This document shows, one piece after another, positions 6,354 through 22,058 of a stretch of DNA of 46,796 nt. Numbering within the stretch: the stretch's first letter is position 1; each line of letters begins with the position of its first letter. The notes below the pieces were generated by a model. It saw only the letters and a program-made list of their open reading frames with translations, was not told the DNA's origin and did no database searches. A program made the translations under genes and the position numbers. The stretch is taken from the IMG/VR virus record IMGVR_UViG_3300001213_000009, positions 1 to 46,796 of that record. One strand, written 5' to 3'. Origin of the DNA: a virus.

Positions 6354-9300
6354 ATGGCGGGAGCAAGACAAATTACATTCGACCCGGAGATTTGGTCAAG
6401 TCCAAATCAGCCCGGACCCCCCGGCGTGGCTCCTAATGCGGGTGCTGATGCTTCTAATGCGTGGTTAGACAATGATGGTGCGACCGCTTGGGCTTTTGAG
6501 GCCGCCGCTGGTGGTTATGCCCATTTCGACATCAACACCGGAACCATTCTTCACGAGGATACTCTCTTCGGCCAACCCGCAAGTAGTAACGTCCTCTATT
6601 ACTCTTCCCTCATGGGAGCCGCTGTTATATGGAAACAAGATGCTGCTGGTTTCTATTACACATTATTCAAACACTCTGGTCATGTAACCATCTACAAATT
6701 TCACCTTGCAGGGTCAGGACCGATTACTCACCTATCTGTATACAAGGGGGGCAAAGGGTTTGCGGTCAACGACACTTTCAGCATTAGTGGGGGTAACAAC
6801 GACGCTGTAGGAAAAGTCCTTTCGGTGGATAGTGTCGGTGGCGTCACTCTTTCTATAATCACAACTGCTGGCACCGGATATACAGCCAAGGTCAAAAGCA
6901 CGACGACCGCCACAAGTGGTGTTGGCACAGGGTTGGTGGTCAGTATTGTCAGCAACGGACAACCCGGTACGCTCCTCAACGGGTACGAGATTATTGACGG
7001 GACTTTCGATACAGCGGTCTTCTTTGGAGGGGTCAACCCGTCGCAGAACATCGTTCTGTGGCACGGCAGCGATGGAAACAACTATCTAGGGATGGTGGAT
7101 GACTACAGTTCCAAAATGTATGTGATTAACACAGACACCATGACCCCGGCTGGATACTTTGATTGCGACCCAAGTTTCAACTACGGCGGGGCTGGTGGTT
7201 TCCAATCATTCGTGGATAAGTATGGAGCCCTTTGGGGTGTGTACGAAATCTATGGTGCTCCCAGCAATGTGAACACAGGTGTGCTTCTCTCTACTTGGAG
7301 CCCATCAAATGGGTTTCTGACTGGACCGATTGAAACCAGCACTCTTAATTTTGGCGGAACTAGCTACGCTCCAAACGACACCTTCACTGTTGACGGTGGT
7401 GGAGGTAACGCAGCAGGGACTGTTCTCACGGTTACTGGTGGGGGCGTCGTTTCCTCGTATGTCATCACGAGTTCTCTTGGAAAAACTTCATTGGACAATG
7501 GTGGGGCAAGCTACATTCCCGGCACAGCCTTCACTGTGACTACGGGTACTGGTGATGCTACGGGAGTGGTCGATACTGTTGGCGGTGGGGGTGCTGTTCT
7601 CACTTATCACATCACAGGCTTGGGCACTAGCGGTTATGCGGTGGGCACTGCGGTTCCTACTGTTATGACAACGGCACCTCTCACTGATTTCAATACAAGC
7701 ATAGGTGTCGCCGGGGCAAATTATGAAGTAGGTGACACCTTCACAGTCACTAGTGATAGTGGAGATGCGGTGGGTACTGTTCTCACTGTGGGTGGGGGTG
7801 GGTCGGTTTCAACCTACTCCATTACCGTCCACGGCACCGCTTACACAAACACAGTCGGCGCGGTGACCAGCACAGTCGTTAAACTAAAGAACTCCAACAC
7901 GAGCATCGGCAACGCGGGTACTGGCTTCCATGCGGGTGATTTTTTCTCAGTTCAAGCGGGTAACTACAGCGCGATTGGCACTGTCCTCACCGTGGGCGGT
8001 GGCGGAAATGTTCTCACCTATAATATGGCAGTTCCGGGTGACCAGTACCCCGCAAGCACAAACAACCCCACACAGGGCTCGACAATTCCGACCAATGCCA
8101 GCACCACTCTCAATAATGGTGGTGGCAGTTATGCTCCCGGAGACACCTTTGCGGTCGGCTTTGGTGGGGGTGAGCGGGGCACGGTGTCTACAGTTGATGG
8201 TAGCGGTGCGGTACTTACATACAACATTACAGGCGGCGGTCAGCCGACACAGTACAACGGAGTCATCCTTTGTGTTGCGGTAGCTCCTCTTACTAACGGT
8301 AACACCAGCCTTAATAATGGAGGACTGGATTACGCCCCCGGAGACACTTTTGCCATTGAAGCACCAGTTGGCGGCTACGGTAGTGGTGCGATTGGAACTG
8401 TGGACACGGTAAATGGAAGTGGTACGATTCTTACGTATCACATCAGCACAGCCGGGAGCGGGTATACCACAGGTACGTGCAACTCCACCACACTGACAGG
8501 TGTTGGTTTTGGTGCGACTCTCACTGCGGCCTTTAGTGGAAACGGGTTCTCTCTAAACGTGAATGCGGGAACGGGCTTGACCATTGACGTTAACAGCGGC
8601 ACGGGTTTGACTTTGAATACAACCCCGACTGGCTCCGGCTTGACGTTGAACATTGACAGCATCGGCTCTGGCACTAATTACTCATTGGCAACCGGAAAAA
8701 CTACCACAGCGACCAGTGGCGGTGGAAGCGGCTTGATGATTGACATCACTGGCCTTGCTCCGAGTGCTAACACCGTTCTTAATACACAAATTTTTTACAT
8801 CGACCCGACTGTTCACGGGCTCTCGGTTGACCCGTATGCTTACGCTGGGTATGTTCCTGCCAATCATTCCTTACTGGTTGCACAAGAACCATGGTGGCTC
8901 ACGGGTGAAGTTAGTGGCATCGCTCTACCCCACTTCTCAGGCCCGATAAGCAACGATGGATTCTTTAGTGTACCTGCAACTGTGTTGAATGTTGGCGGGG
9001 CTAACTATGCGGCGTATGACACATTCACAGTTGACGGAGGTTCTCCTCTAGCGACAGGCATCGTCATGAGTGTAGATGGCGGAGGTGCTGTGCTTACTTA
9101 CCTCTTGACTGGTGGAGTCGGCATCGCCCCAATCGCCTCAGGCGGAGCGGGGGGTGGCTACGCCCCCGGAGATACTTTCACCGTTGACCATTTGAATGGA
9201 ACAGGTACAGCGGCAACTGGCACTGTTCAAACAGTTGACGGTGGTGGTGGGGTTCTTCTCTATACGCTCACGGGGGCTGGAACCAACTACTATGTCGTCA

Positions 9301-11891
9301 CTGGAGTGACAACAACGACGACGAGCGGGGGTGGCTCCGGGCTCACGCTGAATATTGACTACCTCTCTCCGATGGGTGGGGACGGCTATGTAAAAGCAAC
9401 CGGCATCACCACGACAGCGACAAGTGGCATCGGGGTGGGGTTCACTCTCAACATCGACTTTATCACTGGGAAACGAGTCTCTTGGCACGCTGATGACCAG
9501 CGGTTGTTCTCTGTTTATTACTATGACTCCAACGTCATGGGCTTTGATGTAGGTGTGCAAAATGATGGAACTCTGATGCTGGAAGGAAATGGAGCCGACC
9601 CATTCCAAGCGGGTGGGGTGCTCAACATTGTTGACCCAACAACACTGACTGTAACTCAAACGATTGATGCCACACGAGTGATTGTTAGCGAGTCCCCTAA
9701 CATTACGGTCTTCCCCGGACCTCGTTGGTCAAACAACATTTTGGTGGGGCCTGTTTCCCTCGCGGTAAGTGATGGAGTGAATGCAACCTATACCACGACT
9801 CACAACAACATGATTGTTGGGGCACATGCCGGTGTTCAAAATATGTTGGGGGTGTCCGCCGTTGGGGGTAATGTAAACACCGTCACACCAACGGACATAA
9901 CAGTACCGGATGCAACGGCATTTACTGCACATACGCAACACCCACCGCAATTGGTGGACGGTCCTCCTTACAGTTACAACAATAGATACTCGGTTATCAG
10001 TGCTCAGGGCACAAGCTATCCGGGGTTCATGAGCTACACGTGGAGCAAGGCCAACAGTGTGGTTCTCTGTACCTACCTCTGGTGGGGAAGCCCCATCTAC
10101 ATTGTTCCAACAAATGAGCCTCTGTATGCAGCCGCCACAGGCGGCCCGGTTTCTTTGACGGTGACAACAGGCACAACCTCAACAGCCATCACGAGCATTG
10201 TAACCAACCCAGCTTATCCGAGTTCTTCAGTTCAAATTACTGCTCAAGTGACGGCGGGTTCCGGCCCGAATCCGTCGAGTGGTACAGTACAATTCTATGA
10301 TAACGTTTCTCCGATTGGGTCGCCGGTCAGTGTCAACGGTTCAGGTGTAGCTATCCTAACGACCAGCAGTTTTGCCACTGTGGGCTCTCATCCCATCACG
10401 GCTTCGTTTACAGGCGTAGGCTATAGCCCTAGTACGTCTCCATCAGTTCCTTTGTCTATTGTGAAGGCTCCAACCACTACGACTATTACCTCGTACAACA
10501 ACCCAGCGGTGGTGGGTCTTGCGATTACCTTCAGGGTGGTTGTAAATCAGCCGGATGGGGGCACGGTTACTCTAACGGATACGTTCAATAGCGTTACGAC
10601 AACACTGACAACGCTAACGCTAACTCCTAGCGGGAGCACAAGCACAGTCAATTACACAACGTCATCCCTAGCCTACGGTCTCCACACCATCACCGCGACT
10701 TACAGCGGGGATTCTACTTATAGCGGAAGCACAGGAACGGTGTTGCAGCACATCGTACATCCGAGCGATACCTATGTTTATTTGCCAAGCTTCGCTTTGG
10801 TTGGAACGTACAGCGCACAGGGAGACACTCTTCTCCCACCAGCCGCCGTGGCTGTTCTTGTTCCAACGGAGACTACGGGGTCATTCATCGTTCCTAACAC
10901 CCCACTTTTTGTCATCTGGAACACAACCAATATTTCTCAAGTGAGAATCACGGGAGACAATGGGGTCGATGCCCCTCTGGATTCCGGATTCATCATCACG
11001 GTGGGTCAGGATTCGGGTAGCTTTGAGATTCCTTCGGGATTCACGCACGACATTACTTTGACTTTCTTGGCGTATCCCAACAATATTACCAGTCCCCCTG
11101 TGGTGATAACACAGATGCTCTCAGTGGACTTTGCTTCGGGGGCCATGACAGGGATTGCCATCACTCCCTCGAACCCGACCCTTACGGCGGACTCTCTCAA
11201 CCCCTCGACCCTGATTCAAACTCAGCAGTTCGTGGCTACCGCCACTTATGAGGATAGCAGCACCGCAATTCTCCGGTCTTCGGCAGCGGTGTGGGCGTCT
11301 ACGAACACGGTGGTGGCGACTGTTAACTCTACAGGATTGGCGTCTACCACCGCCGCTGGTGCTACTACCATATCCTCCATATATGGAACATTTACAGCCA
11401 GCACACTACTGACACTTCAACTGGCCACTGTGAATAACCTTGTTATTTCAGGCCACGCTGTTCCTTGGATTGTTACTGGCACAATCAACACGATGTATTC
11501 CACACCGGGGCAGTCGAGTGGCTCCACCCCACCCGCCACTATAGCAACCACCCCCGGAAAGGTGGTAACTATTCAATATCTCTCCGGCTTGTGGACTGTG
11601 GGGGGAACGTACTCTTCTACAGATGCGAACGGTCGAACAAGTGATAATGGGCGGTCGTCAGGGGAAGCCGGTTACTATATCCCCCCGTCGTCCACTCCGG
11701 TCTACGCGCAAATGCTCATTGGGGGATTCGCTGATAGCACAGGTCAACTGGTTGCACCCCCTGTCGCCATTGGTAACCACGCTGTTTTGACAACTCCAGC
11801 AGGGGCGACCCAGTTGGTCATGGGCATGAACGACGGAACTACATGGAACGATAATGGGGGCTCCCTTACCGTGGAGTACACAGTAATTTAA
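6354..11891 (+). CDS. Giant fibre-like protein with inserted beta-repeats, Ig-like domains and C-terminal LecA-like lectin module
   Basis: The 1845-residue product shares its scaffold with the 706-residue neighbour (AWAFEAAAGG, YKFHL, LLNGYEIIDGTF, MYVINTDTMT, LNIVDPTTLTV). Three blocks are inserted into it, at about residues 125-202, 325-800 and 880-1040. They are built from about nine copies of a 60-70 residue repeat with core YAPGDTFTV-x-GG, GTVLTV-GGGG-VLTY and TTTATSGGGSGL. Two Ig-like domains follow (about 1278-1468), then a group-2-like Ig domain (about 1596-1690). The last 150 residues match the PA-IL (LecA) galactose-lectin pattern, with an IGGFA strand, a PVAIGNH strand and LVMGMNDGT-x-NDNGGSL. 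This suggests a receptor-binding tail fibre or spike that ends in a sugar-binding head. Confidence 0.8.
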   Translation: MAGARQITFDPEIWSSPNQPGPPGVAPNAGADASNAWLDNDGATAWAFEAAAGGYAHFDINTGTILHEDTLFGQPASSNVLYYSSLMGAAVIWKQDAAGFYYTLFKHSGHVTIYKFHLAGSGPITHLSVYKGGKGFAVNDTFSISGGNNDAVGKVLSVDSVGGVTLSIITTAGTGYTAKVKSTTTATSGVGTGLVVSIVSNGQPGTLLNGYEIIDGTFDTAVFFGGVNPSQNIVLWHGSDGNNYLGMVDDYSSKMYVINTDTMTPAGYFDCDPSFNYGGAGGFQSFVDKYGALWGVYEIYGAPSNVNTGVLLSTWSPSNGFLTGPIETSTLNFGGTSYAPNDTFTVDGGGGNAAGTVLTVTGGGVVSSYVITSSLGKTSLDNGGASYIPGTAFTVTTGTGDATGVVDTVGGGGAVLTYHITGLGTSGYAVGTAVPTVMTTAPLTDFNTSIGVAGANYEVGDTFTVTSDSGDAVGTVLTVGGGGSVSTYSITVHGTAYTNTVGAVTSTVVKLKNSNTSIGNAGTGFHAGDFFSVQAGNYSAIGTVLTVGGGGNVLTYNMAVPGDQYPASTNNPTQGSTIPTNASTTLNNGGGSYAPGDTFAVGFGGGERGTVSTVDGSGAVLTYNITGGGQPTQYNGVILCVAVAPLTNGNTSLNNGGLDYAPGDTFAIEAPVGGYGSGAIGTVDTVNGSGTILTYHISTAGSGYTTGTCNSTTLTGVGFGATLTAAFSGNGFSLNVNAGTGLTIDVNSGTGLTLNTTPTGSGLTLNIDSIGSGTNYSLATGKTTTATSGGGSGLMIDITGLAPSANTVLNTQIFYIDPTVHGLSVDPYAYAGYVPANHSLLVAQEPWWLTGEVSGIALPHFSGPISNDGFFSVPATVLNVGGANYAAYDTFTVDGGSPLATGIVMSVDGGGAVLTYLLTGGVGIAPIASGGAGGGYAPGDTFTVDHLNGTGTAATGTVQTVDGGGGVLLYTLTGAGTNYYVVTGVTTTTTSGGGSGLTLNIDYLSPMGGDGYVKATGITTTATSGIGVGFTLNIDFITGKRVSWHADDQRLFSVYYYDSNVMGFDVGVQNDGTLMLEGNGADPFQAGGVLNIVDPTTLTVTQTIDATRVIVSESPNITVFPGPRWSNNILVGPVSLAVSDGVNATYTTTHNNMIVGAHAGVQNMLGVSAVGGNVNTVTPTDITVPDATAFTAHTQHPPQLVDGPPYSYNNRYSVISAQGTSYPGFMSYTWSKANSVVLCTYLWWGSPIYIVPTNEPLYAAATGGPVSLTVTTGTTSTAITSIVTNPAYPSSSVQITAQVTAGSGPNPSSGTVQFYDNVSPIGSPVSVNGSGVAILTTSSFATVGSHPITASFTGVGYSPSTSPSVPLSIVKAPTTTTITSYNNPAVVGLAITFRVVVNQPDGGTVTLTDTFNSVTTTLTTLTLTPSGSTSTVNYTTSSLAYGLHTITATYSGDSTYSGSTGTVLQHIVHPSDTYVYLPSFALVGTYSAQGDTLLPPAAVAVLVPTETTGSFIVPNTPLFVIWNTTNISQVRITGDNGVDAPLDSGFIITVGQDSGSFEIPSGFTHDITLTFLAYPNNITSPPVVITQMLSVDFASGAMTGIAITPSNPTLTADSLNPSTLIQTQQFVATATYEDSSTAILRSSAAVWASTNTVVATVNSTGLASTTAAGATTISSIYGTFTASTLLTLQLATVNNLVISGHAVPWIVTGTINTMYSTPGQSSGSTPPATIATTPGKVVTIQYLSGLWTVGGTYSSTDANGRTSDNGRSSGEAGYYIPPSSTPVYAQMLIGGFADSTGQLVAPPVAIGNHAVLTTPAGATQLVMGMNDGTTWNDNGGSLTVEYTVI

Positions 11892-12509: not shown

Positions 12510-13045
12510 AAAGTGCCTCTCTATCCACGCCCTTCTTTCTGGTGTCCAAACGAGAGCAGAACTTGACCGCTGGGAGCAGTTCTTCATCGCTCTGTTCAAG
12601 TCGAGAGACCCCAAGTTTGGTTACAACATTTGCAAGGGCGGAGAAGGCTTCAGTGGCTCTCACAGTCAAGGCAGTAATTGCACGCAACGCCCAAGGCCCC
12701 ACAGAGGAGACTCGTAAAAAGTTGATTGACTCCCACACAGGGCTTACTCGCAGCCTAGAATCCCGCGAGAAACAAAGACTGACTATCACAGGAGCTAACA
12801 ACCACTTCTACGGCAGGACTCACTCAGAAGAAACTCTCGCCCAAACTAGAAAGCCGATTCGCTGTGTAACCACGGGTGATGTATTCCCTTCACTTTTGCA
12901 AGCGGCTCAGTGGGCCGGTTGGAATGGAGGGGGTTCAGGGAACCTATCACGGGCACTTAAGGGTAAAGGAAATTTTCTCGGTAAACATTTTGAATACGTT
13001 CAACAACTTTCCAAGCCTATTATAGGTGAAATGCATGGTCTCTAA
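12502..13045 (+). pseudogene. GIY-YIG homing endonuclease remnant, middle and C-terminal part, frameshifted
   Basis: The first frame (12502 to about 12690) encodes ELDRWEQFFIALF, carrying the catalytic Glu, and GYNICKGGEGF, carrying the conserved Asn. These belong to a GIY-YIG catalytic domain that lacks its N-terminal strands here. The sense then moves to another frame (about 12690-13045) with GPTEETRKKLIDS, NNHFYGRTHSEET and a DNA-binding tail with GDVFPSLLQAAQWAGW, like the modular NUMOD-type tails of homing enzymes. So one frameshift lies inside, near 12690-12705, and the N-terminal half lies on the other strand (12200-12509). The 3' end overlaps the start of the next gene by 11 bases. 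The pattern suggests inversion plus decay of an inserted homing gene. Confidence 0.7.
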
Positions 13046-14738
13046 GTTTTCTCATCTCATTCAAGTGGGTCGAATAGTTAACACCGTTGACGGCGGGGTT
13101 TTTCGCGTTACGTCTAAAATCGCATCCGCCGAGGGGATTAAGTTCCGCCTTGCCGACTTGCAGGGTAAGCCCGTTCCAACACCCGCTGACTTTCGTCCCA
13201 TCAGCCCAGCCCTTGCACGCTTCGCGGCGTGGATACGGCTGGCCTATAACAAGGACTTCGATTTGTATGTCAAGGCATACATCGAAGCGGCAGGACTGCC
13301 CATTGACCCAGCAATGAATTGGTCGAGATTCTTCGCGGCTAGGGTTGCCCCCAAGTTGATGTCCAAGGACCCGGAGATTCAGGATGAGGCAATTCACCAG
13401 ATTATCATCAAGACTCTGGTGGAACGCAACGCTCTGACCAATTTTCACGAGTCCATCAAAAAGTTTCCCCAACGCATTCAGGATTTGCCTCTCGACAAAC
13501 AGGTCAGCACCTTCCTGATGCAGACGTTCAATTGGCGTATTCGTGAGGCTAACGACTACATCAAGAACTTCATCTTCCAAGACGAAACCAATTCCATGTG
13601 GGCTGAAGGTGATAGCGAGGATGCAGATGTCAACATTCTCGATAGCGCCGAAAGCACCACAGGCGGGGATGCATACGACGCGGTTAACGCCGACGTTGAT
13701 GTGGCTCACTTCCGCAAGGGTTTCGAAAAATTCCTTGACGAGAAGTTCCGCACCGAAACTGTGCAGCAGTATCTTGCTTTGTTCGACCTCATCTATGCTC
13801 ACTTGAAAGAGGGAGACGTTCCGGGTTCTGGTGCCACAACCCGCAGGGCTCCAATCGGAGTCAGAGAGAATGAAGAGGGCAGACAACTAGGCGTGGGACA
13901 GGCCGAGACGATTGAAAAGGAGATTCCTACTCTGTTTAGTGAGTGGAAAGAACTGACGAATTCTGCCAAGTCTCACTCGTGGTTCAAGGTGCTCTTCACC
14001 AACCTGCCCAAAATTATCGACACTTACATCTCCAAGCATTTGAATGACGAAGAGGTCAGCCCGTTCGTTGACATCATGCGTCAGATTGGTATCGACCAGA
14101 AGGAACAAACCCCTGAGTTGCAGCCCATTGGGGTTGGCGAAGGTGCCGGGGACATCGGTGAACTTGCCGAGTTAGCTCCTCTCGCGGCTGTAGCCTCGAA
14201 GAGTGCTGCTCAGTGGGAAGTTCCAAAGTGCAAGGGATGCGGAAGACAGGATGTATCCGATTGCCTCGCATGTCATGAGAAATTCTGCAACGATTGCATT
14301 CTCACTCATCACGCGAACAACCCAAGTCACGACCGCGTGGCTTCAAAGGCAGCGGCCTTCCATTACATCAACGGGTCTCAGCACAAGCTTGGTGGGTGCT
14401 CCATCTGCAAGAAAGCAGAGCTAGGCGAAACCACCAACGGCAATGATGACCAACCAGTTTTTGTTGATGCCCCCAAAGACCACATCGGTCTCACTCCTCC
14501 AGAGATGCAGGACTTCATCGCGGATTGTATTGGCTCTGGCCTGTACGAACAAGTTGGTGAACCCTACTTTAGCTGGCAGGGATGTGACTACTGCAAGGGC
14601 GGCGGCGGCGGAGACGTTACCGACTGCAAGGGCTATCGCAACCTACAAGATGCTCAGGCTCCGAATCGTGAGGAACTTGAGTATGAATTCCGGCTTTGCA
14701 ATGAATGCCTGTACAAGCTGGTCTATGGGGAAGAATAA
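13035..14738 (+). CDS. Large virion-type protein with B-box-like zinc finger near the C-terminus
   Basis: ATG 13035 (567 residues) is preferred to GTG 13026 because AGGTG lies six bases before it. Residues 1-220 are helical, with FAAWIRLAYN and IQDEAIHQIIIKTLVER, and look faintly like a sigma-factor region 2, though not enough for a call. Residues 399-433 carry a B-box-like zinc finger: C-x2-C, C-x2-C, C-x2-C, then HH and a final H. Two further Cys pairs follow at the C-terminus. The segments AVASKSAA and RVASKAAA flank the zinc finger, the same S-K-x-A linker seen in the 905- and 1376-residue proteins. A packaged internal or structural protein is inferred. The stop abuts the next ATG. Confidence 0.65.
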   Translation: MVSKFSHLIQVGRIVNTVDGGVFRVTSKIASAEGIKFRLADLQGKPVPTPADFRPISPALARFAAWIRLAYNKDFDLYVKAYIEAAGLPIDPAMNWSRFFAARVAPKLMSKDPEIQDEAIHQIIIKTLVERNALTNFHESIKKFPQRIQDLPLDKQVSTFLMQTFNWRIREANDYIKNFIFQDETNSMWAEGDSEDADVNILDSAESTTGGDAYDAVNADVDVAHFRKGFEKFLDEKFRTETVQQYLALFDLIYAHLKEGDVPGSGATTRRAPIGVRENEEGRQLGVGQAETIEKEIPTLFSEWKELTNSAKSHSWFKVLFTNLPKIIDTYISKHLNDEEVSPFVDIMRQIGIDQKEQTPELQPIGVGEGAGDIGELAELAPLAAVASKSAAQWEVPKCKGCGRQDVSDCLACHEKFCNDCILTHHANNPSHDRVASKAAAFHYINGSQHKLGGCSICKKAELGETTNGNDDQPVFVDAPKDHIGLTPPEMQDFIADCIGSGLYEQVGEPYFSWQGCDYCKGGGGGDVTDCKGYRNLQDAQAPNREELEYEFRLCNECLYKLVYGEE

Positions 14739-15509
14739 ATGGCTGAACCAGTAGCAACTCCGGCAACACCTGATGTAACGGAGCCACAACAACAGAATCC
14801 AGCACTCGCCCCTCAGCGTCCGGGGCAGGGTGCGGCGGTTGTGATTTCAGAACCTCAAGAGCAGGAGAAGCATACGATTCCACCAGAGATTCCGTACCCG
14901 AGATACCACATGGCTGTGCTCGAAGCATCGGCCAAGTTCTCATCCTCTGATGTTGCGGAGTATTGGGACTTGGCATCGTTCGACACTCGTCAACAGATTG
15001 TCCATCGCAGCGGATTGCGTGGGATGAATGAAAGACAGCAAATCGAACAACTCATCACCGGAAAGGGCGGCCCGAAACAGTTCACTGACAAGGAAGCCTA
15101 CGAGATAGCCGGTACCCCGTGGAAGCAGTTGACCATCGGCATCAAGATGGAACTCATACAGACGGTGTACAACTTCATGGGTTACGGGATGGAAAACTTG
15201 GGAGACTCAGTACCCGAGTTGGATGACGAAAGCAAAGCGGAGTTGAAGAGCATGGGAATTATCGCCAAGAACGCCCGTGGTGGATGGAAGCGCATCTCCA
15301 TGAACACTGTGCAGAGCGATGACAACCGTTTCACCATCACTCAGATTGACCCGACACGACGCTCGAAGTGGTTCCTTCTAAAAGACATGGAAACTGGAGA
15401 GTCCTACGAGGAAACCACGATGACGGGTGCCAAGAAGAAGGCCAAACAAATAGCGGGTGTAGAAGAATCTCAGGAGTCCATGGTAGCTCTGGAGGATGAA
15501 CTCCTCTGA
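14739..15509 (+). CDS. Hypothetical virion-region protein
   Basis: The ATG follows directly after the preceding TAA. The first 45 residues are Pro/Gln/Thr-rich and probably disordered. A helical, folded core spans about residues 50-190. A beta-rich C-terminal part contains RFTITQIDPTRRSKWFLL and an acidic end. No catalytic or metal-binding signature is seen. It lies between two Cys-rich, linker-bearing genes and is probably co-transcribed with them. No family was recognised. Confidence 0.65.
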   Translation: MAEPVATPATPDVTEPQQQNPALAPQRPGQGAAVVISEPQEQEKHTIPPEIPYPRYHMAVLEASAKFSSSDVAEYWDLASFDTRQQIVHRSGLRGMNERQQIEQLITGKGGPKQFTDKEAYEIAGTPWKQLTIGIKMELIQTVYNFMGYGMENLGDSVPELDDESKAELKSMGIIAKNARGGWKRISMNTVQSDDNRFTITQIDPTRRSKWFLLKDMETGESYEETTMTGAKKKAKQIAGVEESQESMVALEDELL

Positions 15510-15600
15510 ATTTCCCGATTATGACGAGAAACCCGTAACCAACGAAGTTGCGGTAAAGAATGCGTCGGGAAGTGCTTACAGTGAATGGATTAGAAATTGA
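15496..15600 (+). CDS. Possible 34-residue peptide bridging two genes
   Basis: A short frame of 34 codons starts at ATG 15496 inside the end of the previous gene and stops at 15600. The previous stop is only 14 bases into it, and it overlaps TTG 15597, an alternative start of the next gene, in a TTGA arrangement. GGAGG touches the ATG with no spacing, which is poor for initiation, so re-initiation would be needed. It may be real or just an open stretch. Confidence 0.3.
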   Translation: MNSSEFPDYDEKPVTNEVAVKNASGSAYSEWIRN

Positions 15601-15647
15601 ATTTCAAACATCTAATTAGAACTGCGAAATTGGCAGTGGAGGATACC

Positions 15648-16472
15648 ATGGCTCGACCGATTCAAGAAAAGACACAATCAAAATGGGCACGCCTACGTCA
15701 AGTAGCTACTGAAGAGCCCAAAGAAGCTGACTCGGCGATTGCTGAAGTCGCGGAGGCTCTCGGCACGATGGCCGATGCCCTTTCCAATCTTCGCGAGAAC
15801 CTCGACCTGATTGAAGCGCCGAAGACGGCCAACATCAAGGTTCGCATCGCGACGGCTCGTAAGTACGCGACCGCGTTTCGTCGTATCGCCGAAGATACCC
15901 CGGAGATTGTTGCGGGTGCCATCAGCGAAGTTTATCACAGTCTTGATGACGTAGCTGGTGCTTTTGAAAATCTCGCTGAGAATCTCGGCGTCGAACTTAG
16001 TCTGACTCCTGCCGAGGAAGCTATCGGCGAAGAAGGCAAAGCTGAGTTGGAAGGCGAGTGGGGAGCAGAGGAGCCTGAGTCAGGCGAGTCAGGCGCCGCA
16101 CCGGCTGAAGAGAAGCTTGATGCAGAACTCGAAAAGGAAGCTGGGTCACAAGAGTGGACTAGCGACCGCGACGAGGAAGGCCAACCGAAAAGCCCAGTCA
16201 TCGCCGCCGCTACTTGCTCTCAATGCAGTGCTGGTCACGAAGACCCGAAGAAGCCCGGTTTCTGCAAGCGTCATGGCAAGCGTATCAAGAAGGAAAAGAA
16301 AGCTGATGGTTCCGCTGCGTTCATCTCCGACCGCGACAATGCCGCCAAGCCTGAGGCTCCAGCCAAGCTAGACATTCCTGAGGCCCAAGGCGAAACTGAA
16401 GTGGGCAAGGCCGCTGCCAAGCGTGCCGCTGTTCGCGACCGCATCGCCAAGCGTTGGGGCGTTCAACTCTAA
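15648..16472 (+). CDS. Helical acidic protein with C-terminal zinc-like Cys/His cluster
   Basis: ATG 15648 is chosen because TGGAGGA lies five to six bases upstream; the frame is also open from TTG 15597. The product has 274 residues. Its first 130 are strongly helical with SNLREN, FRRIAED and FENLAENLG repeats, two related helical hairpins suggesting a duplicated unit. An acidic low-complexity stretch follows. Then CSQCSAGHED, GFCKRHGKR forms a small Cys/His cluster, flanked by the repeated phrase SDRD and by KKADGSAA and AAKRAA, which match the S-K-x-A linker type. A virion or internal protein is inferred. Confidence 0.65.
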   Translation: MARPIQEKTQSKWARLRQVATEEPKEADSAIAEVAEALGTMADALSNLRENLDLIEAPKTANIKVRIATARKYATAFRRIAEDTPEIVAGAISEVYHSLDDVAGAFENLAENLGVELSLTPAEEAIGEEGKAELEGEWGAEEPESGESGAAPAEEKLDAELEKEAGSQEWTSDRDEEGQPKSPVIAAATCSQCSAGHEDPKKPGFCKRHGKRIKKEKKADGSAAFISDRDNAAKPEAPAKLDIPEAQGETEVGKAAAKRAAVRDRIAKRWGVQL

Positions 16473-17148: not shown

Positions 17149-17196
17149 GAACGCTTGCGTTCCACCTCTCAAGCCATGGGGTGTCTCCTGTAGAAC

Positions 17197-17228
17197 ACCG
17201 CCGCTCTGTCCTGTGATGGAGCGGCGGT
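17197..17228. terminator. Hairpin between convergent genes
   Basis: A perfect ten base-pair stem (17197-17206 with 17219-17228) lies between the plus-strand methyltransferase and the minus-strand integrase. It probably stops transcripts from both sides, although T runs on either side are short. Confidence 0.65.
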
Positions 17229-17234
17229 CTCCGT

Positions 17235-17804
17235 TTAGGCGGCTGCAAAAATCTCAGTCACCTTGTCCACCATGTAATCGGTCGCCTCATCGCTGATGTC
17301 GAGATACATCTGTGTCACTTTCAAATCCTCGTGACCGAGGAACTTTGAGATAAGAGGAACGGGCACGCCACGCTTGTACATAATTGTCGCTCCCGTCTTA
17401 CGCCAACGATGCAGGTTGAATCCCGTGAGCCCGTCACGCTTGGCAATCGCTTGACACTTCTTGAGGAAGTGTCCCTCAACATGACCGAAGGTGTTGGGGA
17501 ACAGTAGGTCGTGTTCCTGCTTGCCTTCGCAGTACACCTTCAGCTTCTCCATCACTTCCGGTTGAAGGGCAAGCGGTCCGGTCAAGCGGTGCGGGGTCGG
17601 AAGATTCCCATGCCTCGTTGGTTCATGGTGGACATAGCGGTCGGATTTGAGGCGAGTGCGAAGGAATCGTCTGTAACGCTCCCAGTACCCTTGGTCAACT
17701 TGATTGAGCGGAGTGATGCCGTCGAACTCCAGCATGTAGCCAAGGCGGTGAGTGTATGCGTTGAGCGTCTTGGGTGACGCACCATACCCGTGAATTGGGG
17801 GCAC
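17235..17804 (-). CDS. Tyrosine recombinase (integrase), lacking first catalytic box
   Basis: The minus-strand frame starts at GTG 17804 and gives 189 residues. The C-terminal half has the box II signature H132-x-x-R135, LGH with H158 and the nucleophile Y167, in FLGHEDLKVTQMYLD. The N-terminal 50 residues look like the core-binding helical domain. Between them, where about 100 residues with the first catalytic arginine should be, only a short linker is found. Family members usually have 300 to 400 residues, so this one has lost part of the catalytic domain and is probably inactive or a relic. Its apparent start lies inside a terminator hairpin at 17799-17826. It might still act as a DNA-binding protein. 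Confidence 0.75.
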   Translation of the reverse strand: MPPIHGYGASPKTLNAYTHRLGYMLEFDGITPLNQVDQGYWERYRRFLRTRLKSDRYVHHEPTRHGNLPTPHRLTGPLALQPEVMEKLKVYCEGKQEHDLLFPNTFGHVEGHFLKKCQAIAKRDGLTGFNLHRWRKTGATIMYKRGVPVPLISKFLGHEDLKVTQMYLDISDEATDYMVDKVTEIFAAA

Positions 17805-17826
17805 CTTATGGGTGCCCTCCCTTTTT
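17799..17826 (+). terminator. Intrinsic terminator over the 5' end of the integrase
   Basis: A seven to eight base-pair stem (17799-17805 with 17811-17817) is followed by CCTCCCTTTTT on the plus strand. No plus-strand gene ends just before it; it overlaps the integrase start codon, so it may have arrived with a rearrangement that truncated that gene. Confidence 0.65.
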
Positions 17827-17853
17827 GGTGCTGAAAATAATTTTCCAGAATAC

Positions 17854-17883
17854 TAGCCAAAACCAAGTACACCCCGGTATACT
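17854..17883 (+). promoter_or_regulatory. Phage promoter P1 (TAGCCA-N18-TATACT)
   Basis: Boxes lie at 17854-17859 and 17878-17883, with an A/T-rich stretch before. The predicted start is 17890, the first base of the structured non-coding region. No open frame follows, so this copy appears to drive an RNA. Confidence 0.8.
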
Positions 17884-17889
17884 GTAACT

Positions 17890-18400
17890 AGAGACCGGAA
17901 GGGCTTCATAAGAAGTGGCTCCGGGCGGGGGTTTGGCGGAACCCTTTAACAAAATCCGCCGTTTTATGGGGAGCATGGTTGCCTGAGCTATCGAGGGTGT
18001 ACAACCACGTTAGTTTGGTCGTGGGTCTGATTCCCACACGTCCCCACCAAAATTTGACAAGACGGCGGGTAAGAGTCCTACTGTCCGAAAGGGTGGTGCC
18101 CAATGTTCGGTGGTGAGCCTATCCAGTAATGGATACAGCATCATGGTAGCGTAACGTTGCGTTACTCACCACCTGTAGTCGGCGGAGGCAGGGACTCCTT
18201 AAGGGGGAACGCAGTTGCAACTGATAGCCCTCGGCGTAAAGCTTTGCTCCAATGTTTGTCTGGTGTATCGCTGGACGAGCCCCAACCAGATTGGCTCGAT
18301 TACACTGGATGATTCAGTTTCGGGGAAGGAATGAAGGAGTCCGCAGTATGGCATGGCCGTGAGGCGTAGCCATCCGACACGGCTTACCACCTTCCCCGAG
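17890..18400 (+). ncRNA. Structured non-coding RNA region, about 510 bases
   Basis: No convincing gene is present on either strand between promoters P1 and P2. The stretch is packed with perfect stems: 17895-17899 with 17920-17924; 17935-17940 with 17955-17960; 18073-18078 with 18192-18197, which encloses 18085-18089/18106-18110, 18109-18117/18165-18173 (nine pairs) and inner hairpins 18120-18125/18130-18135 and 18151-18156/18160-18165; 18263-18267/18301-18305 around 18276-18281/18293-18298; and 18321-18329/18390-18398 (nine pairs). This multi-branched layout and the dedicated promoter suggest one or more large phage RNAs, comparable in scale to the ROOL and GOLLD classes, although I see no sequence match to them. 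There is no clear terminator. Confidence 0.55.
17968..18049 (+). other. tRNA-like 3' half within the RNA region
   Basis: The stretch starts GGGGA and ends TCCCCACCA. It includes a five-pair stem GTGGG/CCCAC (18021-18025 with 18033-18037) around a seven-base loop TCTGATT, like a T arm with two bases swapped from the usual TTCGATT. Acceptor pairing holds for five pairs and fails for two, and no proper anticodon arm forms. It is either a decayed tRNA, a tRNA-like part of the larger RNA, or an attachment site copied from a host tRNA 3' end. Confidence 0.35.
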
Positions 18401-18439
18401 AATCCTCTCAGACCCCCTCAAAAAATTCCCAAAAAATAC

Positions 18440-18469
18440 TAGCCAATCTTGTGTATCCTCCCGTATACT
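18440..18469 (+). promoter_or_regulatory. Phage promoter P2 (TAGCCA-N18-TATACT)
   Basis: Boxes lie at 18440-18445 and 18464-18469. The ATG of the next gene begins exactly seven bases after the -10 box, so the mRNA should start at the start codon. Confidence 0.82.
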
Positions 18470-18475
18470 ACGAGC

Positions 18476-18739
18476 ATGAACAACAATATTGTGTTCGTCG
18501 TAGAAATTCCGCTGACTGAGAAGAACAACGTCGTCACCTACAACGTCAGTAAAGACGCCGGTTTGAAGGTGAAAGATGTGACTAACCAACTACGTGAAGC
18601 GGTCGAAGCCGCCTTTCCGGGCATCGAAGGGGTGCAGGTACGCTGCCGTCAAAACCCCGATTGGCACGAGATTATGCGCCAACGAGAGGCTTCCAAGAAT
18701 CGCTCCGGCTTCTTTCAGAGGGTGTTTGGGAGAGCCTAA
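18476..18739 (+). CDS. Small phage protein from a leaderless mRNA
   Basis: ATG 18476 is chosen because it lies at the predicted transcription start of P2; the upstream in-frame start at 18449 falls inside the promoter. The product has 87 residues. It opens with a beta strand IVFVVEIPLT, then a helical stretch with VTNQLREAVEAAFPGIEGVQV and ends in basic residues. The alternation of strand, helix and strand suggests a small ferredoxin-like or RAGNYA-type fold, but no family was recognised. No Shine-Dalgarno site exists before it. Confidence 0.7.
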   Translation: MNNNIVFVVEIPLTEKNNVVTYNVSKDAGLKVKDVTNQLREAVEAAFPGIEGVQVRCRQNPDWHEIMRQREASKNRSGFFQRVFGRA

Positions 18740-18769: not shown

Positions 18770-18799
18770 TAGCCAAAACCACAGAGGTTGAGGTATTAT
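18770..18799 (+). promoter_or_regulatory. Phage promoter P3 (TAGCCA-N18-TATTAT variant)
   Basis: TAGCCA at 18770-18775 and TATTAT at 18794-18799 keep the same 18-base spacing. Unlike the other protein-coding copies no start codon lies seven bases on; a leader of about 75 bases leads to the gene at 18882. Confidence 0.65.
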
Positions 18800-18881: not shown

Positions 18882-19748
18882 ATGAGTAAATTTTGGGAAA
18901 ACGATAATGGTAAAACGCAACGTTACATTGAGACCATCACCCCCGCGATTGCGCGAGAGTTGATTGACAATCTTGATGTACGACTGGCTGCTGACGGCCT
19001 TCTTCGCCGTCCCGTAAACCGGGCGCGGGTGAAGATGTATGCCGAGATGATTCGGCGTGGCGAGTGGGAGCCCATGCTCTCGCAGATTCACTTAACCGGC
19101 AAGGGTGCAGCCCTAAACGGCCAGCATCGTTTGCTTGGCGTCATTGACGCCGACAAGTCCATCACTTGCGATGTGGTGAAGAATACGCCACCCGAGTGGT
19201 ACGACCGTTTCGACACCGGCCACCGCACCCATGAGGACAACATCACCATCAGCGGTGCTGCCGACCCCCGCATCAAGAAGTCCCTCATTCCTCTGGTGTA
19301 CGCCAGCTTCAATGGCACCATCCGCTCCTACAAGGTTGATGAAGTCCCTCCGACCGTCGTCAAGGAAATCTCCCGTGACTACGAAAAGGAACTGGACACG
19401 GCCATTGCCTTTGCGAAGGGGTCAGACTTCAAGCCCATCTTCGTCGCCTTCATGTACTTCCACTTGAACCGGGTTGGCTATCTGAAGAAGTGCCTGCCTT
19501 TCCTCCAGCAGTTCAAGGACGGCACGAACCTGTCGAAGTCTGACCCTGCGTATAAGCTGCGGAGGCAGATTCAGGTGCTCAGCCGCAACATCCGCAATAA
19601 GGAATTGTTGGCGAAGCTGTTTCACATTTGCAACCGCATCGTCAACGATGAACCGATTGGCAATCTCATCGCCGACTGGAAGTACACCATCGAAAAGAAG
19701 CAGCCGAAGACGACCAAGAAGCATAAGGCATTCGCCGCCCACGCTTAG
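18882..19748 (+). CDS. ParB/Srx-fold phage protein
   Basis: ATG 18882 with GGGAGAAG upstream is preferred to GTG 18828. The 288-residue product contains the motif ALNGQHRLLGVIDADKSI followed by YDRFDTGHRTHEDN. These are hallmarks of phage proteins with a ParB/sulfiredoxin-like core (a GQHR loop and a downstream D-x-G-x-R-T). The N-terminal 80 residues are helical with VKMYAEMIRRGEWEP, and the C-terminal part is helical and basic. The role in phages is not established; relatives are found in early or middle regions and may bind nucleotides or DNA. A perfect inverted repeat lies directly after the gene. Confidence 0.75.
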   Translation: MSKFWENDNGKTQRYIETITPAIARELIDNLDVRLAADGLLRRPVNRARVKMYAEMIRRGEWEPMLSQIHLTGKGAALNGQHRLLGVIDADKSITCDVVKNTPPEWYDRFDTGHRTHEDNITISGAADPRIKKSLIPLVYASFNGTIRSYKVDEVPPTVVKEISRDYEKELDTAIAFAKGSDFKPIFVAFMYFHLNRVGYLKKCLPFLQQFKDGTNLSKSDPAYKLRRQIQVLSRNIRNKELLAKLFHICNRIVNDEPIGNLIADWKYTIEKKQPKTTKKHKAFAAHA

Positions 19749-20993: not shown

Positions 20994-22058
20994 GTGAAGT
21001 GTCATCAACGCAAAATCAGAGAAGCAGCGGCCCTCACAGAGATTGACGACCCCGAAGCGTTGGAAGCCGCTAAGGACATCAAGAATGCTGTCGTTCGTGA
21101 AATTGACCGCAAGACCGCTGAGTCTGTTATCCTGAAATATGAGTGGTTGGGTAACATGGGCAACTCGGCTCGTTACTTCGGCATCTACTTCAAACATCCT
21201 ACCACAGGTTCTGAGTATCTTGCCGGGGTCAACTGCTTCGGGCATCCGGGTTCTATATCCATCAATCAAATCTGTGGCAAGGAACACGTCGAAAAAATTT
21301 ACTGGTTGGCACGCGGGGCCTGCGTTCATTTCGCTCACCCCCATGCGGGTAGTCTACTTACCACTGAGGCTTGTAAGTTATTCGGAAAACCGTGGAAGAC
21401 TCGCGATGGGAAAGACATGCCAGCTAAGTTTGTATTTGTGGCTACAGCGGACAGTGACGCCGGAGAATGTGGTACAATTTATCAAGCTTGCAATTGGTTT
21501 TATGTGGGCAAGACAACCTCTGACCGGATGTTTCTCAAGGATGGTATGCCAAAGGAATTAGCTAAGAGTTATCGTGTGTTGGTTAAGGGTCCGTTGCGTA
21601 ATCGCACGGGTCGGGTGGAAACCGCAGACCCGGACGGTCGGCGTCACTTCCTGATTGATGGCGAGAAATACTACTGCGGAGACACATTGCCTGACGGCTG
21701 TAACCTCGTCGGCTCCCCGGCGTATCCATTCAAGGTCAAAGCGAAGTATGGAAAGACCATGAAGGAAGCGGAAGCGAATCGGTTGAAAGAAATTCTAGCT
21801 GAAGGTTGGAAGCCAATTCCGGGAAATCCAAAATATATGTACTGCGGAATCTACTCCGATGGTACCATCAAGGGTAAGAAGCAACGGAAGGAACTCATCG
21901 AAGCTTTGAAGAACCACAAGATGAAGGGCAAGGATTTTCTTCCATACCCAAAGCGTAAAGATGCGGCCAAGCACACGGGTGTGACGGCAGACATGCTCAG
22001 CAATGAGTCCACCGCCGAGGGCGGGGTTCAAGTCCCCGAGGCCGCTCCAAGCCTATAG
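20994..22058 (+). CDS. Mom-like DNA-modification (acyltransferase-type) protein
   Basis: The 354-residue product shows the core of phage Mom-type proteins: ILKYEWLG near residue 50, an aromatic GIYFKH strand, EYLAGVNCFGHPG, WLARGACVHFAHPHAGS and YADS-like FVATADSDAGECGTIYQACNWFYVGK. Mu Mom is an adenine-modifying enzyme of GNAT ancestry that hides phage DNA from restriction. Family members are usually 200 to 250 residues, and this one has an extra basic C-terminal 100 residues. The start is GTG with no Shine-Dalgarno site, but TATCCT and TATACC boxes stand just upstream, so a leaderless mRNA is possible. Substrate and product cannot be told from sequence. Confidence 0.65.
   Translation: MKCHQRKIREAAALTEIDDPEALEAAKDIKNAVVREIDRKTAESVILKYEWLGNMGNSARYFGIYFKHPTTGSEYLAGVNCFGHPGSISINQICGKEHVEKIYWLARGACVHFAHPHAGSLLTTEACKLFGKPWKTRDGKDMPAKFVFVATADSDAGECGTIYQACNWFYVGKTTSDRMFLKDGMPKELAKSYRVLVKGPLRNRTGRVETADPDGRRHFLIDGEKYYCGDTLPDGCNLVGSPAYPFKVKAKYGKTMKEAEANRLKEILAEGWKPIPGNPKYMYCGIYSDGTIKGKKQRKELIEALKNHKMKGKDFLPYPKRKDAAKHTGVTADMLSNESTAEGGVQVPEAAPSL

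Follow-up and report, generated by a model that had tools for sequence, protein, structure and literature searches.

A candidate large structured non-coding RNA with a conserved, probably pseudoknotted core and a tRNA-like module in two phage lineages

Introduction

The two ornate phage RNA classes whose structures have been solved are GOLLD and ROOL; their function is given as unknown (PMC12286853), and both are described as forming RNA-only cages (PMC12286853, PMC6582537). GOLLD RNAs are large molecules of phages and prophages that combine a conserved region with a variable part, sometimes hold a tRNA or pseudo-tRNA inside the gene, and are often found near tRNA islands (PMC12286853, PMC6582537). 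ROOL (RF03087, whose model has 574 positions) is likewise of phage origin, and a pseudoknotted fold and a variable linker are among the features given for it (PMC12286853).

The locus analysed here lies in a linear virus record of 46,796 bases, the whole of which is hereafter called the window. The region very probably encodes a non-coding RNA of ~530 nt, made from its own phage promoter, belonging to a class unmatched in Rfam and found in two phage lineages; no description of this RNA was found in the open-licence literature searched. A sequence-only reading of the same DNA had inferred a large structured RNA, possibly of a new class, a proposal supported here as far as one homologue allows. 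With GOLLD this RNA shares the phage origin, the conserved and variable parts and the link with tRNAs, and with ROOL the size, the probable pseudoknot and the variable linker; it differs from GOLLD in its length, ~530–660 nt here versus more than 800 nt in many GOLLD members.

Results

Promoter and predicted start of the RNA

The region had been proposed to begin seven bases after a phage promoter, and this was borne out: a TATACT −10 box is found at 17878–17883, with TAGCCA at 17854, 17890 is the seventh base after the −10 box, and the promoter type recurs across the phage group. A scan of 17700–18600 returned two promoter-like and two terminator-like sites versus shuffle means of 0.9 and 1.0; the weight therefore rests not on the scan but on the recurrence of the motif, which is repeated with fixed spacing both in the window and in records from related phages. 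The class, common to the phage group, consists of TAGCCAA, 17 nt and TATACT (TATTAT at 18770) with an A/T-rich part upstream, and is seen in the window at 17854, 18440, 18770, 22542, 23152 and 24074. The predicted promoters of the window RNA and of its homologue in the phage record G007 (see below) are of this same repeated class.

Among 43 distinct matches to the promoter, 32 have a frame of at least 45 aa beginning within the next 26 nt; since a start codon often follows these promoters after only a few bases, a large share of the transcripts may have almost no leader. Three of the 43 have no frame of at least 45 aa within 160 nt, namely that of the G007 homologue, one in L050, where tRNA genes follow, and one in G003 (L034). 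At the promoter of the window RNA the nearest frame is a 45-aa TTG frame, 95 nt on.

Stems and predicted fold

The three stems named in the sequence-only reading are all present, exactly in place: two of nine pairs, now included in stems 1 and 2 (Table 1), and a proposed closing stem in which GAGTCC at 18073–18078 faces GGACTC at 18192–18197 (6/6 pairs). Within a span of 150 nt, perfect stems of 9 bp or more number three versus 0.20 in shuffles, with 2/1000 shuffles reaching three; these are the two nine-pair stems and the complementarity of 18192–18200 with 18334–18342, which had not been named before. For stems of at least 8 bp the count is three versus 0.8 (37/1000 shuffles), for at least 7 bp six versus 3.0 (87/1000), and for at least 6 bp 20 versus 12.2 (27/1000 having as many).

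Folding of 17890–18425 gave an MFE of −211.5 kcal/mol (z −3.99), a value as low as which was found in 0/100 shuffles. The minus strand of the region also folds better than chance (z −2.95, 1/100 shuffles as low), as is expected from hairpins. When 346 sliding windows covering both strands of the contig were compared, a single one, 17153–17688, just upstream, had a lower energy per base, and after correction for G+C content 2/338 windows elsewhere were as low (residual z −2.9). The fold of the G007 RNA had a z of −2.06, with 0/20 shuffles as low. The proposed closing stem exists in the window but is not kept in the homologue, where no GAGTCC occurs among the first 120 nt, and its 3′ bases (18192–18197) fall within the conserved 18192–18200/18334–18342 complementarity.

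Table 1. Features of the RNA locus in window coordinates.
Feature	Position	Strand	Remarks
Intrinsic terminator of upstream unit	17797–17826	+	Stem 17797–17819, then CCTTTTT; terminator scan
Phage promoter TAGCCA-18-TATACT	17854–17883	+	Motif recurs in phage group
Large structured RNA	17890–18417	+	Probable extent, from predicted start to 3′ strand of predicted closing helix
5′ hairpin CCGGA...TCCGG	17895–17924	+	MFE structure; no counterpart identified in homologue
Predicted closing helix, 5′ strand GGGGGTTTGG	17927–17936	+	MFE structure; pairs with 18408–18417; absent from G007 fold
12-pair helix round tRNA-like piece	17954–18070	+	17954–17965/18059–18070; MFE structure; window only
tRNA-like module	17967–18049	+	Acceptor-like stem 17967–17972/18041–18046; ACCA 18046–18049; T-arm-like hairpin 18021–18037
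CCAATGTT, first copy	18100–18107	+	Kept in homologue (alignment)
Stem 1	18109–18173	+	18109–18117 (GGTGGTGAG) with 18165–18173 (CTCACCACC), 9/9 pairs; shortened in G007, where one U-A pair becomes C-G
Conserved core block A	18167–18256	+	81/91 aligned columns identical to G007 (89%)
Long-range 9-bp helix, 5′ strand GGACTCCTT	18192–18200	+	Partner 18334–18342; invariant
Core hairpin GGGGG/CCCTC with inner stem	18203–18232	+	Read by eye
CCAATGTT, second copy	18249–18256	+	Kept in homologue (alignment)
Variable linker, block A to stem 2	18257–18319	+	63 nt; in G007 240 nt, holding a predicted tRNA
Stem 2	18320–18399	+	18320–18329/18390–18399, 10 pairs, including 18321–18329 (CGGGGAAGG) with 18390–18398 (CCTTCCCCG), 9/9 pairs; 4 pairs doubly changed in G007, 0 broken
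Conserved core block B	18329–18390	+	59/62 bases identical to G007 (95%); internal hairpin 18348–18373 with GUGA loop
Long-range 9-bp helix, 3′ strand AAGGAGTCC	18334–18342	+	Invariant; crosses stem 2
Predicted closing helix, 3′ strand TCAGACCCCC	18408–18417	+	MFE structure

A homologous RNA at a syntenic place

Plain similarity searches with the window RNA, and likewise with the G007 RNA, found no homologue in phages or plasmids. With the promoter as bait, 20 stretches in 15 records were obtained, and among the 13 of them previously unsearched five gave matches at E ≤ 10, two being strong (G007, E 2.9e-28; G018, E 5.2e-28) and the other three short and weak (best E 0.09). As the G007 and G018 RNAs are identical, they are counted as one independent homologue. 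Homologues of the window genes upstream of the RNA (12542–16472) lie upstream of the G007 RNA, with 52–67% protein identity, and side-by-side comparison shows that the terminator keeps both its place and its sequence ahead of the promoter of the homologue, the stretch 17791–17863, which comprises the terminator and part of the promoter, being 80% identical. These upstream gene homologues, together with the conserved terminator and promoter, support orthology of the window and G007/G018 RNAs, which lie at a syntenic place. The flanking gene 14739–15509 is clear only in G007 and G018 among the 18 other records, both of which carry the RNA, and G008 shows a marginal match to it (E 0.002).

Further searching with models of the core left 16 of the 18 searched records without a match, most of them not clearly covering the locus, and the core models R1 and R2 found no new member there or in a set of 43 sources. 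Two weaker R1 matches correspond to the opposite strand of known loci, that is, to a hairpin read backwards, and an R2 match at 9285–9367 of the window was rejected as chance. A block B pattern matched the two known records and L080, the latter by chance, in viral contigs, and gave four matches in genome contigs, none of which (0/4) matched the core models; the single match of a T-arm pattern, inside an apparent coding gene, was also discarded as chance. When proteins served as bait in viral contigs, a 905-aa protein retrieved four relatives, all without the RNA, and two others retrieved no relative; another bait protein returned 16 distant methyltransferase loci, uninformative for the RNA.

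Regarding the wider neighbourhood, in both phages Mom-like DNA modification genes follow the RNA at a distance of 2.0–2.6 kb (window 20994–22058; L077:1468–2064), and such a gene is present in exactly the three of 19 records with the RNA, an association that is not independent evidence because the same three records alone clearly carry the flanking gene. An aminoacyl-tRNA feeding the Mom-like enzyme was considered and dropped for lack of support. The nearest named phage for two window proteins is Tunturi_5, a phage of an acidobacterium, while a third protein is closer to other phages; an acidobacterial host may be guessed at. The record G003, a 98-kb relative, contains a CRISPR-like array (L033:17738–18513, about 57738–58513 of G003:C1) with 13 copies of the 36-nt repeat GTTGGATTCAGCCTTCAAATCCAGTAAGTCTACAGG, which in one half recur at exact 66-nt intervals, separated by unique spacers of 30 nt, and in the other half are irregular; no spacer matches beyond 12–14 nt were found elsewhere in the related loci compared.

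Conserved core and covariation

Sequence conservation between the window and G007 is concentrated in blocks A and B of the core (Table 1), the latter including 42 consecutive identical bases, while matches in the coding flanks are 67–77% identical as DNA and 52–67% as protein. The two copies of CCAATGTT are kept as well; no perfect partner for them was noticed in the RNA, and they are possibly sites of protein or intermolecular contact. In the long linker of G007, two near-identical units of ~31 nt, GTTTAAG..CC.GGCAACAAGGTT..CGCCCTGC, were read by eye after the tRNA (L077:4290–4390), bounded by an 8-bp stem TGGCGGCG/CGCCGCCA.

Compensatory changes were looked for in the stems of the sequence-only reading. 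The stem 18321–18329/18390–18398 came through this check in the one homologue, four of the ten pairs of stem 2 being doubly changed with none broken: reading window/G007, the changes are G-C/C-G, A-U/U-A, A-U/G-C and G-C/A-U, and the six remaining pairs are unchanged. When the partner strand was slid by 1–3 columns, two-sided changes fell to zero. Column shuffles reached the stem-2 covariation values in 32/500 cases, two distinct rows giving little power. The stem 18109–18117/18165–18173 fared less well and is only partly kept, since in G007 it is reduced to a hairpin of fewer pairs, in which one pair has changed on both sides and which competes with another pairing. In the hairpin 18203–18232, comparison with G007 shows one one-sided compatible change (G.U/A-U), one two-sided change and one broken pair in the inner stem.

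Complementarity of 9 bp between the two blocks was reached in 1.3% of block B shuffles. As the helix 18192–18200/18334–18342 crosses stem 2, the core would probably be pseudoknotted; both strands of this helix being invariant, the pseudoknot is read from complementarity and position, and is unproven by covariation.

Coding potential

The absence of a convincing gene, as previously claimed, was confirmed. The frames on the same strand inside the RNA region reach 45 and 51 aa, those of the minus strand inside or overlapping it have 44–65 aa, and a longer one on that strand, of 91 aa (18314–18589), runs antisense to the downstream gene. Codon changes between the two phages amount to three silent and three replacing in the plus frame of block A; in the minus frames of this block to none silent and seven replacing in one, and five silent and two replacing in the other; and in the two open minus frames of block B to none silent and three replacing, and one silent and two replacing. 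The block A frame with five silent changes measures 45 codons between its stops in each phage and is unalike outside the block; in general, block A frames with silent changes span 44–60 codons with nothing in common outside it, and block B frames, of 27–99 codons, are also unalike outside theirs. None of the four frames examined (0/4) spans both conserved blocks in both phages, and a conserved protein frame, which would have counted against the sequence-only reading, is thus not seen. Given that the frames are short, unalike outside the blocks and never continuous across both blocks in both phages, we conclude that selection acts on the nucleic acid.

The tRNA-like module

The tRNA-like part claimed near the start of the region comprises a CCA end and a hairpin resembling a T-arm, in a piece that is uncalled by ARAGORN and near noise in Rfam. 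At default settings ARAGORN recognised no tRNA genes in the 46,796-base window, this piece included, and no cloverleaf is recognisable in it; the only match shown from the tRNA/tmRNA clan of Rfam is beta_tmRNA at 18014–18061 (7.2 bits, E 7.4), and no Rfam family matched at gathering score across the window. The module is probably a degenerate or divergent tRNA, or a pseudo-tRNA.

In G007, a near-canonical tRNA is predicted at 19512–19388, mostly within the 240-nt linker that joins block A to stem 2, with acceptor stem, D-arm, anticodon stem and T-arm. ARAGORN called it at default with introns allowed, where 0/200 shuffles were called; at the 90% and 80% thresholds 11/200 and 175/200 shuffles, respectively, were called too, and without introns the tRNA is uncalled. 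Its anticodon loop has 45 nt (7 nt plus a 38-nt "intron" in ARAGORN terms), which makes it unlikely to decode as it stands. Its best match in the Rfam clan is tmRNA (11.3 bits, E 0.031; gathering 47). The tRNA-like piece is thus upstream of the core in the window, whose 63-nt linker is without a tRNA, and between the blocks in G007, and these differing places suggest a movable module.

Islands of 6 to 14 tRNA genes were detected in four of the 19 loci scanned, all from relatives with the promoter class (L046, 14 genes; L049, 6; L050, 9; L058, 14). A tRNA-Pyl (CUA anticodon) was called in L050 and a tRNA-SeC (UCA anticodon) in L058, which are possibly suppressors.

Discussion

The predicted RNA gene is well supported by sequence. 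On balance, and with moderate confidence, it is best explained as an undescribed large phage RNA formed by a rigid core and a movable tRNA module, GOLLD/ROOL-like in its design.

The leading alternative, although an unlikely one, is that of a decoy for factors handling tRNA or tmRNA, in which the core would do no more than stabilise a tRNA-like domain, and this domain would titrate a host factor in infected cells, be it EF-Tu, SmpB, an aminoacyl-tRNA synthetase or an anticodon nuclease of a defence system. The presence of a tRNA-like piece in both RNAs, at different places, is in line with it, and the altered anticodon loop of a G007 tRNA unlikely to decode is suggestive; moreover, tmRNA models are the best Rfam clan matches of both pieces, and a tag-less tmRNA form of phage DS6A is reported to inhibit host tmRNA in E. 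coli (PMC11915505). On the contrary, it is the core that is conserved, whereas the tRNA-like piece differs in position and sequence between the phages; a decoy has no obvious need for 150 nt of strongly conserved core, and the window piece is unrecognisable as a tRNA.

A long structured 5′ leader regulating the downstream gene in cis appears improbable. Such a role would be consistent with the same-strand frame found directly downstream of the RNA in both phages, and with the terminator scan of 17700–18600, which found no terminator behind the window RNA. Nonetheless, the downstream genes differ, an 84-aa frame in the window versus, in G007, a 410-aa protein that matches DruA below threshold (E 0.0021); a separate promoter of the repeated class stands before the 84-aa gene, at 18440–18469, and the fold of the G007 sequence places a long hairpin with a T-rich tail ahead of the next gene.

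More improbable is a ribozyme-like element or a relative of group I introns, a reading suggested by the helices 18192–18200/18334–18342 and 18320–18329/18390–18399, which cross with a hairpin between them. The succession of one strand of the long-range helix, hairpins, the first strand of stem 2, the second long-range strand, a hairpin and the second strand of stem 2 is that of the P3-P7/P8 core of group I introns; a GIY-YIG/NUMOD3 gene also lies near the RNA in G007 (L077:446–1495). P7 of group I introns is, however, conserved, unlike stem 2, a plain 10-bp helix free in sequence; Rfam scans of the window and G007 RNAs gave no match to intron families at E ≤ 10, and the RNA is intergenic, with its own promoter and no exons to join, so the intron reading was dropped as unsupported.

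A degenerate or divergent phage tmRNA gene is highly improbable, despite weak matches to tmRNA models and, as in tmRNAs (RF00023, RF01850, RF04321), a tRNA-like domain within a larger RNA, here a probably pseudoknotted one. A related phage record (L051, IMGVR_UViG_3300029915_000731) does encode a permuted tmRNA on its minus strand at 11301–11523 (RF04321, 49.7 bits with a gathering score of 47), with an apparent tag, ANEFAMAAAA, read by eye. For the RNAs under study, in contrast, scores are far under gathering (7.2 bits of 84 in the window, 11.3 of 47 in G007), RF04321 matches neither of them, and no Rfam tmRNA match covers core block A or B. ARAGORN at default called no tmRNA in the window RNA or the scanned loci, and at a 50% threshold its tmRNA calls fell on inconsistent parts and strands, with "tag not identified" in the outputs shown; in addition, there is no consistent tag frame, and the tRNA-like domain is not fixed in place.

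Least credible is that there is no RNA gene, the region holding instead stems formed by chance, a small protein gene that escaped recognition or an attachment site for the integrase next to it, since, against the open frames across each block in both phages, the five-silent, two-replacing minus frame through block A as a point for coding, and the integrase-like short frame alongside in the window (17235–17804), stand the shortness and dissimilarity of these frames outside the blocks, with none of those examined spanning both, the two-sided changes in stem 2, and the conservation of the core in G007, whose upstream neighbour matches phrog_1128 and is not an integrase, the attachment-site reading having been dropped as unsupported.

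Returning to the large phage RNA with a rigid core and a movable tRNA module, its working would involve a rigid RNA scaffold of several domains, pseudoknotted in its core, presumably made in quantity during infection and possibly self-associating, in whose variable parts the tRNA-like module might be carried or displayed as cargo or bait. The two-sequence alignment names helices open to testing.

As to the known classes, the earlier remark that the region has no sequence match to ROOL or GOLLD agrees with the Rfam scans, and the likeness serves as no more than an analogy. No GOLLD match at E ≤ 10 was found in whole-Rfam scans of the window and G007 RNAs, run without a GOLLD positive control, and ROOL RF03087 matched 0/19 records at E ≤ 10, a threshold at which 0/14 controls matched either. 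A tRNA in the variable linker, a trait of some GOLLD RNAs, is predicted in G007, while the weak piece of the window lies outside its linker, and the trait speaks for an RNA that works like GOLLD and not for membership. A conserved, rigid core with variable parts, a tRNA or pseudo-tRNA, phages with tRNA islands and an own promoter resemble the plan of GOLLD and, in part, of ROOL, and from this resemblance we infer a scaffold RNA. That it works like these ornate phage RNAs is put forward tentatively, with somewhat less than even confidence, and its self-assembly would be a guess by analogy. Rather doubtful, taken as a whole, is the further picture of a new natural RNA architecture beside GOLLD and ROOL, an RNA-only phage assembly in which a near-invariant pseudoknotted core would hold variably placed tRNA-like cargo and present non-decoding tRNAs, such as the one with the 45-nt anticodon loop, as decoys or protected cargo. 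Another class would offer a further comparison for the purpose of the tRNA insert, and a class with the GOLLD/ROOL plan and no sequence similarity to them would suggest convergent use of large RNAs and tRNAs in phages.
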